Positions 6,330-46,605 of a DNA stretch of 47,171 nt are shown here, in pieces; positions within the stretch are counted from its first letter, which is position 1, and each line of letters opens with the position of its first letter. The stretch spans positions 1 to 47,171 of the IMG/VR virus record IMGVR_UViG_3300044640_001077. The stretch is one strand, 5' to 3'. This DNA is from a virus. The position numbers and the translations under genes were made by a program. Under the pieces are notes generated by a model, which saw only the letters and a list, made by a program, of their open reading frames with translations, was not told the origin of the DNA and did no database searches.

Positions 6330-6354
6330 GTGTATGTTGCCGTTTTAAGGTTTG

Positions 6355-6427
6355 TTTCCGAGGCAGGACTCGAACCTGCGTGTTCCTGATTTGCCGTCAG
6401 GAGCGTATCCAACTCCGCCACTCGAAA
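6355..6427 (-). tRNA. tRNA-Cys(GCA)-like with G33
   Basis: 73 nt, no encoded CCA. The acceptor is TTTCGAG / CTCGGAA (one T-G pair). The D arm has 3 pairs, the anticodon stem is CCTGA/TCAGG, and the T arm is GCAGG-TTCGAGT-CCTGC with a canonical loop. The anticodon loop is CGGCAAA, giving anticodon GCA (Cys). Position 33, almost always U, is G, and the discriminator base is A rather than the U expected of tRNA-Cys. A functional charge cannot be assured from sequence. Confidence 0.75.
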
Positions 6428-6751: not shown

Positions 6752-6756
6752 TTTCG

Positions 6757-6832
6757 TTCTCGAGAGCGGACTCGAACCGCTGACATGCCCCGTTATACAC
6801 AGAGCCGCTCTAACCAACTGAGCTACTCGAAA
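6757..6832 (-). tRNA. tRNA-Ile(UAU)-like with G33 and a long anticodon stem
   Basis: 76 nt, no encoded CCA. The acceptor is TTTCGAG/CTCGAGA with discriminator A, the D arm is GCTC-AGTTGGTTA-GAGC, and the T arm is AGCGG-TTCGAGT-CCGCT. The anticodon arm pairs CTCTG with CGGGG (plus an extra G-C) around TGTATAA, giving anticodon UAU. As in the neighbouring tRNA, position 33 is G, not U. The alternative fold is a 5-bp stem with a 9-nt loop. Confidence 0.7.
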
Positions 6833-17112: not shown

Positions 17113-18915
17113 CTAATAAGCTAAACGCGCTTTCGAGCGTTGATAATCGTCTAACATCTTTTTGAACTCGGACTTCATTGTATCAGTCAGTTTAACTCCA
17201 TCTTCCTTTGTTGCGCCACCTTGAAGTGTAATGTTCGGAGCGAAGTTCATAACGCTTGAGTTGTTCTTCGGAACTAACGCATCTGCCTTCGGCCCAGGAC
17301 GAACAACTTCCATCTTTTTCCTATACTCATCCGACACCCCAAACTTTGGATTAACTACGCCCATTTTATTGAAATAAGTTTCGTTATGCTCGGTAACCCA
17401 CTTGCCAACAACATTGGTTTGTTTTCCCATACCCGTTAGCTCTTTCACCTTATTGATTGTAGCTTCCAAGGCTTTTGCAGGTTCCACAGCGAGTTCAATA
17501 AGAGCCACAACAGCCTGAGCAAAAATGTTTCTGACACCTTCCCATAGACCTGAAAAGAATGCTGATACCTTTTCCCAATTAGCCATCACCCAAACAGCAC
17601 CGGCTGCAATAGCTCCGATGATTAACGGAATGCCTGCAGTTGCTAAGTTAAATGTAATACCAAACGCAGTAGCAGCACTGCCCATAACAGCAAATGCTCC
17701 TACCACAACAGCAGCAACAGCCGAAAAACCCATGAACAAAGCAATAAACTGAGCCACCTTTGGATACGCCTTCACAAAGTCGGCTATCGCATCTATAACA
17801 GGCTTGAACAGTTCAGCAGCCTTTTTCAATGGCTCCAATAATCCAGCTCCAAAACTTCTCTTCAACTCGTCAAGCGTATTAGTCATCTTTAGGTACTGAG
17901 AATTCGCTTCCTCATTACGAACCTCAAACTCGCGATCCATCGACCCTTTTAGCTTAGCATCATTAAGCAAGTCCAGTTCACTCGTATACTCTTTTAACCC
18001 CTGAGCGAGCTTTGTAATGTCGTCTCCGTGTTCCTTCCCGAATAACTGAGTGGCGAGGGATAAACCATCCTTGCTGTTCTTCACTTTTTCGAGCACTTCC
18101 AAAATTGTTCCCTGCGGATCAATCTTCATCATGTTTTGCATCTTTGATGCCGAAAGCCCCAATGCCTCGAGTCCATCTTGGAATCGCTTCGGCTGCATCT
18201 CAGCAATAGCAAGCTCACGCATCAACGCATTAATTGCCGTGCCTGCTACCTCGGGACGTGAACCCAACGTGAGGAACGTAGATGCCAATGCAGCAAGGTT
18301 CTTGTCTGCAATTCCAATCTGCTTTGCTGTACCCGCTGTTCGCATGAGTACATCAATTATTTCAGGACCCTTCGCCTGAGTCTTATCATCCAAATAGTTG
18401 ATTGTATCAGCTAAGTCGCTGATTTTATTGATTGGGATATCAAACATAGTGGCGAGCTTACCCATCTGCTCTCCGATCTCCCCAGCAGGAACATCAAACG
18501 CCATGCTCATTTTAGACACGTCTCGCACGTACTGAGCAAGGTTCTCTCGCGCAATACCCATACGACCACCCGCAGCAGCAAGATCAATGAGCTGTTCTGT
18601 TGGCAAAGGAATTTCCCTAGCCAATCTTTCAATGTCTCCCGCAAACTCTTTTAGCGCGGATTTATCATTCAGCCCGTCAACGACTTTCCGAACGCCATTC
18701 ATTTGCGTTTCAAAGTCGGCAGCAGCTTTAACCTGATTCTGCAAGACTCCCAATACAGCAGCACCGGCTGCTATCTGAGCTCCTCCACGCAACGCCTTAT
18801 CTTGGTTTCTCAGGCGTTCCATCTCCTTGACTGATTTGTTAGTCGCACCCTTAACCACATCCGACATCTTGTCGATTGCGCTAAGGACTACGGCTACTCT
18901 AAGAAGTTTATCCAT
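17113..18915 (-). CDS. Tail tape measure protein
   Basis: 600 aa. Mostly helical. Residues about 50-330 hold the TP901/P2-type region (FETQMNGVRKVVDGLND, LAREIPLPTEQLIDLAAAGG, MAFDVPAGEIGEQMGKL). Residues about 395-470 are hydrophobic (FIALFMGFSAVAAVVVGAFAV, IPLIIGAIAAGAVWV), consistent with membrane insertion during DNA entry. The start codon lies inside the end of the frameshifted chaperone extension. Length predicts a short-to-medium tail. Confidence 0.92.
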   Translation of the reverse strand: MDKLLRVAVVLSAIDKMSDVVKGATNKSVKEMERLRNQDKALRGGAQIAAGAAVLGVLQNQVKAAADFETQMNGVRKVVDGLNDKSALKEFAGDIERLAREIPLPTEQLIDLAAAGGRMGIARENLAQYVRDVSKMSMAFDVPAGEIGEQMGKLATMFDIPINKISDLADTINYLDDKTQAKGPEIIDVLMRTAGTAKQIGIADKNLAALASTFLTLGSRPEVAGTAINALMRELAIAEMQPKRFQDGLEALGLSASKMQNMMKIDPQGTILEVLEKVKNSKDGLSLATQLFGKEHGDDITKLAQGLKEYTSELDLLNDAKLKGSMDREFEVRNEEANSQYLKMTNTLDELKRSFGAGLLEPLKKAAELFKPVIDAIADFVKAYPKVAQFIALFMGFSAVAAVVVGAFAVMGSAATAFGITFNLATAGIPLIIGAIAAGAVWVMANWEKVSAFFSGLWEGVRNIFAQAVVALIELAVEPAKALEATINKVKELTGMGKQTNVVGKWVTEHNETYFNKMGVVNPKFGVSDEYRKKMEVVRPGPKADALVPKNNSSVMNFAPNITLQGGATKEDGVKLTDTMKSEFKKMLDDYQRSKARLAY

Positions 18916-19293
18916 CAGGTGGTCTGTTTAGTTTATTATGCAGGTTAACGGCTTCAACGTGCCAAAAGTTTAACTCTCTTGCGTCCATCTCCATCAGAGA
19001 TGGAATGGGAGTATTTGAAAAGTGCGCGAGGAACATAAAGTCCTCGCCACTTAAAAATTTACGCCTGCGAACTCCGCTTGAAGTTTGATCGTGTCCTTCA
19101 TCGGCATCTCGTCAAGCTCTTCCATAGTGATAGGCTTGCCGTCAATCTCAATGCAGAGAGAGATAAGCGCGAACAAGAACAAGCTCGTATCGTCACCCAT
19201 CATCTTTTGCGCCTTGCGTTGGTGAGAGCCTTTTGGCTCGGTTACGATAGTCGCTTTGCGTCCATCGGATAGTTCAATCGTTTTGTTTTCCAT
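18908..19293 (-). CDS. Tail assembly chaperone E+E' made by -1 frameshift
   Basis: At the end of the E frame the slippery heptamer A AAT TTT (19060-19054) is followed after 6 nt by a perfect 7-bp hairpin. A -1 shift opens a 48-codon extension: LSGEDFMFLAHF..., with MEMDARELNFWHVEAVNLH, ending in a TAA at 18908 inside the tape measure start. The Trp/His-rich pattern is that of gpE' proteins in P2-like phages. The composite would be about 127 aa. The fusion is expected to bind the tape measure. Confidence 0.85.
19026..19060 (-). promoter_or_regulatory. Programmed -1 ribosomal frameshift signal
   Basis: Slippery site AAATTTT at 19060-19054, zero frame A AAT TTT, directly before the TAA stop. 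Stem GCGAGGA (19047-19041) pairs with TCCTCGC (19032-19026) around an 8-nt loop; spacer 6 nt. All three elements have the ideal order and spacing. Confidence 0.85.
19051..19293 (-). CDS. Tail assembly chaperone E
   Basis: 80 aa. The P2 gpE / gp41-type pattern: IELSDGRKATIVTEPKGSHQRKAQKMMGDD, then EIDGKPITMEELDEMPMKDTIKLQAEFAG. It lies between tail tube and tape measure, the universal place for this chaperone. A share of ribosomes should shift at its last codons to give E+E'. Confidence 0.9.
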   Translation of the reverse strand: MENKTIELSDGRKATIVTEPKGSHQRKAQKMMGDDTSLFLFALISLCIEIDGKPITMEELDEMPMKDTIKLQAEFAGVNF

Positions 19294-19318: not shown

Positions 19319-19345
19319 AAAAAATGCGGGTAGTTTCCTACCCGC
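19319..19345 (-). terminator. Rho-independent terminator after the tail tube gene
   Basis: GCGGGTAG, loop GAAA, CTACCCGC, followed on the minus strand by ATTTTTTC. A strong hairpin with a T-run lies between tube and chaperone, so it probably lowers tail-chaperone expression relative to the abundant tube protein. Confidence 0.8.
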
Positions 19346-19375: not shown

Positions 19376-19894
19376 TTATCCACCAATGTTCGCTTTGTAA
19401 GTATTTAACTTGTCCACTCCGTCCACTTTGTAAATGTTCGCCATCACATCAAATTCAACGATGTCGGCTCCGTCAATCTCCTGCTTCATGTACGTCACGT
19501 TGAACATGCTCTCCAGCTCAACATTGTCGTGCTGTTTGAAGTTGCCAGTAGGCGCGTTCTTAAACGTTCCTGTCAGGTACACAACGTAAGGAACTTGAGA
19601 AGTTCTTGCTCCACCCACATAGGTCTCCAAGCTACCGCGAATCTGCAACTGAACAGCCGTGAACGGGTCAGAGCTTTTACGAAGCGCGTCAGCATATGCC
19701 GAGTTCCATTTGATCTTGGCTTCGAGTTTCTCTACTCCCGAAGGCAGTTCAAACGTCCCGAACATTCCAAGAGCCTTGTGCTCAGACATCTTGAACTTCA
19801 TGTCGGGAAGGTTTACTTCCTCAGCCCTGCCAAGGAAGTTCACGCCATCCACGTATACGTTGGCGTTGGTAAGTCTATTGATTGCTGTTGCCAT
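19376..19894 (-). CDS. Major tail tube protein (FII-like)
   Basis: 172 aa. FII family signs: NVYVDGVNFLGRAEEVNLPDMKF, EHKALGMFGTFELPSGVEKLEAKIKW, and GDTQ-type end ADIVEFDVMANIYKVDGVDKL. It polymerises as stacked hexamers around the tape measure. It follows the sheath gene by 2 nt and is closed by a strong terminator. Confidence 0.92.
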   Translation of the reverse strand: MATAINRLTNANVYVDGVNFLGRAEEVNLPDMKFKMSEHKALGMFGTFELPSGVEKLEAKIKWNSAYADALRKSSDPFTAVQLQIRGSLETYVGGARTSQVPYVVYLTGTFKNAPTGNFKQHDNVELESMFNVTYMKQEIDGADIVEFDVMANIYKVDGVDKLNTYKANIGG

Positions 19895-38801: not shown

Positions 38802-38918
38802 TTAATTGAGAGTGTTTAAGTCTTTAAATTCTTGTTTCGTTTCGCGGATAACTCGTGGCAACTTAGTAAGCCACCATACGAATCCGACTAGTAGCGCAAT
38901 GATAAGTAAGTCCATCAT
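38802..38918 (-). CDS. Small single-TM protein
   Basis: 38 aa: MMDLLIIALLVGFVWWLTKL then a basic-acidic tail (PRVIRETKQEFKDLN). ATGA overlap with the upstream gene. Could be membrane-lysis, membrane-depolarisation or an anchor for replication. Confidence 0.6.
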   Translation of the reverse strand: MMDLLIIALLVGFVWWLTKLPRVIRETKQEFKDLNTLN

Positions 38919-39322
38919 GATTCTCCTCCTTTCGATTTTGCGATAGCTTGTTTTGCGTGTGTAATTGCGGGTTCGTCTCCTTCCAGCTCCCCATTCCCGC
39001 CACTAATACACGACTCAAATCGCGACAGAATGTCTTCCAATGCTTGGCGTAACTCGTTACGTTGTTCGACCAAACCTTCAATCATGTGCCGTTGGTTGTC
39101 GTTGTGGGCTTGGAGCTGATCACGCTTGGCTATCAAGGCGTAGTTATCAGCGATAACCTGCGGTACAAGGTTCTCGTATGCCTCGACCTCCGCTTTCAGT
39201 TTGATGTTCTCTGCAATAGCCGCTTGTGCAGAAAAATCAGATGTGTTTTTTGTCTCGTTGCTCAATGAGTGTTTCATGCTTTCAAAGGGTGTTCCTTCGT
39301 TAAAATAATCTTCTGTTTTCAT
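38915..39322 (-). CDS. Coiled-coil protein with duplicated N-terminal tag
   Basis: 135 aa from ATG 39322. The first 17 residues (MKTEDYFNEGTPFESMK) and 36 nt upstream are nearly identical to those of the gene at 45986. After that it is a long coiled coil (AIAENIKLKAEVEAYENLVPQVIADNYALI, QRHMIEGLVEQRNELRQAL). Function unknown. Confidence 0.7.
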   Translation of the reverse strand: MKTEDYFNEGTPFESMKHSLSNETKNTSDFSAQAAIAENIKLKAEVEAYENLVPQVIADNYALIAKRDQLQAHNDNQRHMIEGLVEQRNELRQALEDILSRFESCISGGNGELEGDEPAITHAKQAIAKSKGGES

Positions 39323-39363
39323 ACTATAAATTTTACTTGTTAAGCCGCACTTCGTAAGGCTGC
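39272..39363 (-). repeat. 92-bp direct repeat, copy A
   Basis: Nearly identical (2 mismatches) to 46349-46440. On the minus strand it includes a palindromic GCAGCC...GGCTTAAC stretch, a 5' leader, the start codon and 17 codons. It is a portable 5' module. Confidence 0.9.
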
Positions 39364-39390
39364 AAACCGTTATACACAATAAAAACAAAA

Positions 39391-45985: not shown

Positions 45986-46399
45986 TTAGCGGTCAATGCC
46001 GCATGGACATTGACTATCGTGAACAAGCGGGTTTTTACACCGACAAAACTCTTTTGGCACTTTCTGAATCGGCAACACAGCCGCTAACAGCGGTTTAATG
46101 TCTGATTCAATAAACTTTTGGTACAAGTCCGATGCGTTTAAAACTTGTTCACCATTAGACCAATCGCCTGAGCCTATATGCTGGTATTGTTCGTTTTCCA
46201 ACCATGTTAAAAAGTTATGCGCTTGCATCATTGCAAATTGCTCAATAACCTCTGTAATGAAATCTTGATCTTCGGCTTCTTCAATGGTGTGTCCGTAGCT
46301 GATTTCTTTTGGTAGCAATACTGTTAGTTGCTCTTTTGCTTTTAATGCTTTCATGCTTTCAAATGGTGTTCCTTCGTTAAAATAATCTTCTGTTTTCAT
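45986..46399 (-). CDS. Protein with duplicated N-terminal tag, C-terminal Cys-rich end
   Basis: 137 aa from ATG 46399. Shares MKTEDYFNEGTPFESMK with the gene at 38915 through the 92-bp repeat; the rest differs (GHTIEEAEDQDFITEVIEQFAMMQAHNFLTWLE, end FCRCKNPLVHDSQCPCGI). Unknown function; the Cys-rich end may bind zinc. Confidence 0.65.
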   Translation of the reverse strand: MKTEDYFNEGTPFESMKALKAKEQLTVLLPKEISYGHTIEEAEDQDFITEVIEQFAMMQAHNFLTWLENEQYQHIGSGDWSNGEQVLNASDLYQKFIESDIKPLLAAVLPIQKVPKEFCRCKNPLVHDSQCPCGIDR

Positions 46400-46440
46400 A
46401 CTATAAATTTTACTTGTTAAGCCGCACTGCGTAAGGCTGC
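46349..46440 (-). repeat. 92-bp direct repeat, copy B
   Basis: Same as copy A at 39272-39363, with 2 mismatches (one in the codon after GTPF, one in the upstream palindrome). Outside it the two regions are unrelated. It suggests recombination or cassette transfer of a 5' module. Confidence 0.9.
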
Positions 46441-46452
46441 GGGCGTTATAGG

Positions 46453-46605
46453 CTATTTTACCATCCAATCCGAGAGTTTAGACTTAATGATTAATTTCAG
46501 CTCATCTACTCTTGACAGCGGACAGCGAAATGCAACTGTTTTAGTTTGCTCATTATATTTAGGTTTAGCACCCGAACCTTTTCTAGTGCCGCCACTTTTT
46601 TTTTC
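46453..46605 (-). pseudogene. Truncated small gene without a start codon
   Basis: Right after the TAA of the next gene, in the same frame, is an open reading: EKKSGGTRKGSGAKPKYNEQ..., with TKTVAFRCPLSRVDELK and a TAG at 46453. This resembles a small basic protein, but no ATG/GTG/TTG is in frame. A run of 9 A lies at its start. Either a gene broken at its 5' end, read-through of TAA, or a frameshift product. Confidence 0.55.

Follow-up and report, generated by a model that had tools for sequence, protein, structure and literature searches.

Organization of the E/E' junction

The locus described here raises the question of whether a single start codon in a phage tail operon can give rise to two tail assembly chaperones. 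It was found in the virus record IMGVR_UViG_3300044640_001077 of IMG/VR, of which the stretch analyzed (positions 1 to 47,171, hereafter the window) comprises 47,171 nucleotides; all features of the window located by position below lie on its minus strand. The gene for an 80-aa tail assembly chaperone, termed E (0 frame, 19293..19051), sits between the gene for the tail tube protein FII (19376..19894; PF04985, E = 7e-54), which is upstream and is itself preceded by the tail sheath gene, and that for the tail tape measure protein (17113..18915; phrog_28, E = 4e-99; PF10145, E = 1e-29), all on one strand. This interval is the usual site of tail assembly chaperones in tailed phages. E matched phrog_21320 (E = 5.6e-13), and its score against PF10109 (Phage_TAC_7), the chaperone family of P2 E and Mu 41, was 24.9 bits (E = 2.1e-5), 0.1 bit short of the cut-off of 25.

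E ends with the residues AEFAGVNF, and its 3' end reads GTA AAT TTT TAA. The slippery heptamer A_AAT_TTT (19060..19054) is in phase with E, and the stop codon TAA (19053..19051) is the first triplet past it, as the sequence-only reading had claimed. The dimensions which that reading gave for the downstream hairpin also proved correct to the base: a 6-nt spacer, TAAGTG (19053..19048), separates the heptamer from a 7-bp stem formed by the 5' arm GCGAGGA (19047..19041) and the 3' arm TCCTCGC (19032..19026) around the 8-nt loop CTTTATGT (19040..19033). These 7 bp are perfect, but the real stem is longer and extends through GTG (19050-19048) with CAC (19024-19022) and then AA with TT, past one bulged G (19025). 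The 6-nt spacer falls inside the 5-9 nt range expected of structures downstream of XXXYYYZ slip sites.

In the -1 frame, an extension of 48 codons plus TAA, termed E' (18908..19054), was found open, with the motif FLAHF...W...EA...LHNKLN. Its translation runs LSGEDFMFLAHF...NRPPDG, and its stop codon (18910..18908) lies within the start of the tape-measure gene (ATG at 18915), which agrees with the earlier description; the predicted E+E' fusion is 128 aa long. Annotation in a single frame leaves 18916..19050 as the 135-bp empty gap that had been anticipated. No direct match of E' to any Pfam or PHROG family was found, and a search of the window with PF06528 (P2 E') gave no match; in a profile-profile comparison, E' matched the P2/LPM4 E' at 92%. 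Readthrough of the E stop codon in frame 0 was also considered and rejected, as it adds just 18 codons with no counterpart in the E' of relatives.

Proposed -1 ribosomal frameshift

From this arrangement, we propose that one start codon very probably yields two tail chaperones by a -1 frameshift on A_AAT_TTT. Most ribosomes would terminate at TAA and release E, and a minority, delayed by the hairpin together with the stop codon beside the heptamer, would slip back one base on A_AAU_UUU. In such a tandem slip, the P-site tRNA-Asn would re-pair from AAU to AAA and the A-site tRNA-Phe from UUU to UUU; the slipped ribosomes would then continue in the -1 frame to produce E+E'. The adjacent stop codon perhaps contributes to the stimulation. 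If the two proteins act as lambda G and GT do, the tape measure protein would be bound by E, and E' would bring in tail-tube subunits in the appropriate ratio. We infer the slippage, its efficiency, the tandem mode over slippage in the P site only, and the roles of both proteins. A Shine-Dalgarno-like GGAG, located 11 nt ahead of the heptamer in the manner of dnaX, was dropped from the model, being retained in neither L084 nor L004.

The hairpin has a minimum free energy of -15.8 kcal/mol over 41 nt (z = -4.5), and none of 200 dinucleotide shuffles was as good; z for the downstream structure spans -4.5 to -5.6 at this site. Against 1000 synonymous recodings that preserve the E' protein, z was -4.3 (p = 0.001). 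The whole window was scanned for sites combining an XXXYYYZ heptamer, in phase and no more than 28 nt from a stop codon, with a -1 extension of 40 codons or more and a stem of 7 bp; exactly one was found, against a mean of 0.0067 in shuffled windows, these criteria having been chosen after the site had been seen. The comparative evidence is stronger than these chance statistics.

Conservation of the signal in related phages

Relatives were gathered with the tube gene from IMG/VR, GTDB genomes, and annotated phages; this query replaced E and the tape-measure gene, which on their own had yielded only one near-identical record. An E'-only profile was dropped for the genome scan, since the domain is too variable. 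Among the relatives, a profile of the E' domain gave 54 distinct loci, the window's own included, in which E' lies in the -1 frame of the upstream ORF. Most substitutions in E' affect the third codon position as read in the -1 frame (10/7/20 by codon position between the window and L084; 2/3/12 between L101 and L124).

The sequence-only reading had named the conservation of heptamer and stem in related phages as a check on the frameshift. In-phase A_AAT_TTT was present in 24/54 loci, the T6 heptamer TTTTTT[AGT] in three, and a run of five or more T without any XXXYYYZ in 20, where the hairpin is mostly kept; T_TTT_TTG and T_TTT_TTA occur in L022 and L036. Among sequenced genomes, A_AAT_TTT is carried by Foetidibacter luteolus (the YG09 prophage, L064), two genomes of Flavipsychrobacter, and one of Chitinophagaceae; outside that group, it occurs in the isolates Serratia phage MQ-4 and Acinetobacter phage Alexa. 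In the published records of these two isolates and of Pseudomonas Persinger and PPpW-3, E' is left unannotated; an in-phase heptamer and an open -1 frame are present in all four (L047, L076, L075, and L078).

Most loci with a stop codon adjacent to the slip site retain the hairpin. Where the stop codon lies within 13 nt of the slip site, its mean z was -4.0 for A_AAT_TTT loci (n = 18) and -3.2 for U-run loci (n = 24); it was -1.1 for loci with a more distant stop (n = 6). L053, L062, L143, and the stop-distant class have a weak hairpin or none. One subset re-forms the stem by compensatory changes: in six loci sharing a stem register, 98% of cells were paired, a percentage biased by the choice of these loci for that register, compared with 38-62% when the register was slid. 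The informative part of this test is that 4/10 pairs are altered on both sides. In the U-run group, column covariation of the stem was no higher than in shuffles; the stem is conserved there, not covarying.

Alternative origins of E'

The one serious alternative to the frameshift is an independent start of E' at an ATG that lies within the loop of the hairpin (19034..19036), with GAGGA as the ribosome-binding site or with re-initiation after the E stop codon. In this phage, that ATG is the only candidate start ahead of FLAHF, and GAGGA lies 4-5 nt upstream of it; such a pair could start E' here and in a few relatives; L084 retains GAGGACATTATG, and L026 and L030 carry ATGATG at the E stop codon. 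However, the ATG is not conserved among relatives. Relatives that keep E' as an independently started gene had been named beforehand as the outcome that would speak against the frameshift; instead, no ATG, GTG, or TTG precedes the conserved FLAHF motif in 27/54 distinct loci, and an ordinary separate E' gene therefore cannot explain those loci. Conservation of the -1 frame also reaches 5' of the ATG, where KFLxS is specified from the slip site onward, and the bases resembling a Shine-Dalgarno sequence lie within the stem. Across the window, no Shine-Dalgarno-like motif was found upstream of any of 20 gene starts, whose leaders are A-rich, which is consistent with a Bacteroidota host and again disfavors GAGGA as a binding site. 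We consider an independent start improbable.

A variant of the frameshift model places slippage in the P site only, where tRNA-Phe would slip on the five U beside the stop codon and the AAA would be incidental. Every stop-adjacent A_AAT_TTT site also forms TTTTT with the stop codon, the 20 relatives with a T run of at least five mostly have a hairpin in spite of lacking XXXYYYZ, and the list of backward motifs used by PRFect includes a 'five' pattern (PMC10885494). The sister group with just five U suggests that P-site slippage beside the hairpin can suffice. Because that group retains the -1 frame and the hairpin without XXXYYYZ, the heptamer is perhaps not indispensable in every relative. 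On the other hand, several stop-distant relatives, as well as MQ-4 and Alexa, carry AAATTTT with just four T, which points to the heptamer there. For the window's own site, where both routes yield the identical peptide, we regard P-site-only slippage as the less probable mode, though one deserving some weight.

Two further explanations were weighed. Transcriptional slippage on the T run, giving a mixed mRNA, would find a T5 run at the site, but the runs known to act in this way are longer (above 8 for T and above 7 for A; PMC3711429), and the hairpin is placed where a ribosomal stimulator should be; we judge it very improbable. An overlapping pair of frames can also resemble a broken gene, yet a sequencing error or a decayed gene is hardly credible when 54 distinct relatives, along with the genomes of several isolates, keep the same two frames and their junction. 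The -1 frameshift that the sequence-only reading had placed in the tail chaperone gene is the best explanation, given the conserved heptamer and stem and the lack of an independent E' start in half of the loci (27/54), and tail-chaperone frameshifting is strongly supported here by these comparisons of sequence.

Comparison with known systems

The slip heptamer of lambda, G_GGA_AAG, is unlike the A_AAT_TTT found here. That of P2 is T_TTT_TTG, a site typical of P2-like phages though not strictly defining for them, and lies 25 nt ahead of the stop codon, whereas A_AAT_TTT adjoins it. The heptamer had been described as distinct from these known sites; it is indeed not that of P2, but this phage is not alone in having it, and the relatives counted above share it together with MQ-4 and Alexa. 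In the latter two, an in-phase A_AAT_TTT and an open -1 frame likewise lie between the chaperone and the tape measure, but the stop codon is 13 nt past the heptamer start. Achromobacter phage Mano has a related tape measure and tube in the same order and, at the corresponding place, a -1 frameshift CDS annotated by its depositors as a tape measure chaperone; its slip site differs, being G_GGT_TTT at -13 from the stop codon. No bacterial ribosomal frameshift at A_AAU_UUU was found in the literature searched, which covered few subscription journals; that sequence appeared only for eukaryotic RNA viruses, and AAATTTT was mentioned once, in a Wolbachia phage hydrolase region.

The sequence-only reading had considered the arrangement the same as in P2 and lambda. 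Our statements on P2 are based on PMC3931495, PMC3091744, and the annotated P2 record. The E/E+E' pair of the P2 FETUD operon shares with this locus the order tube, E, E', and tape measure, a -1 shift near the E end, an E' overlapping the tape-measure start, and E' profiles that align. Unlike this locus, P2 has no downstream hairpin (z = 0.1 in the same analysis); P2 and its BCC relatives are reported to have no downstream structure, an element described as rare in phage tail frameshifts (PMC3091744). The conserved hairpin is therefore a real difference outside the P2 scheme. Lambda G/GT is alike in having two chaperones, one start, and a low-level -1 shift, and GT links the tape measure and the tube (PMC5009743), a part that the minority product E+E' would play here.

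The tube/chaperone gap and other features of the window

In the gap between the tube gene and E, a perfect 8-bp stem with a GAAA loop followed by ATTTTTT (19345..19326) resembles an intrinsic terminator, and strong hairpins are present in this gap in L034 and L084 as well. In 8/54 distinct relatives, a coding-strand gene for tRNA-Met (CAT) lies in this gap, 15-32 nt ahead of where the chaperone starts (L050:3572-3644, L151:3018-3090, L100:3018-3090, L099:3018-3090, L119:3015-3083, L139:3027-3103, L136:3028-3101, and L143:2597-2670). This tRNA may serve to divide the mRNA, or to direct its processing, between the genes of an abundant protein and a scarce one. The gap element, terminator-like here and a tRNA-Met in eight relatives, may be a fresher subject than the frameshift.

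Elsewhere in the window, genes for tRNA-Cys (GCA; 6354-6427) and tRNA-Ile (TAT; 6756-6832) were identified. The ORFs 38915..39388 and 45986..46468 have a common start, CGLTSKIYSMKTEDYFNEGTPFESMK, and diverge afterwards, which suggests a duplicated leader or gene start.

Implications

The proposed frameshift signal belongs to a well-known class of recoding; P2 has neither its slip site nor its conserved hairpin. Single-frame annotation overlooks E' here and in the deposited records of MQ-4, Alexa, Persinger, and PPpW-3; since the E' domain is unrecognized by Pfam and PHROGs, a probably essential tail protein is missing from the annotation of these phages. It is also conceivable, although we hold this only tentatively, that in a phage lineage with some sequenced carriers in the Chitinophagaceae the frameshift relies on the conserved hairpin and a stop-adjacent U run, not on an XXXYYYZ heptamer, so that slip sites (A_AAU_UUU, U6, U5, and G/A runs) would have been exchanged while the hairpin and E' were retained. 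With its interchangeable slip sites and mostly conserved hairpin, the 54-locus family offers a natural experiment on the requirements of -1 frameshift signals in bacteria.
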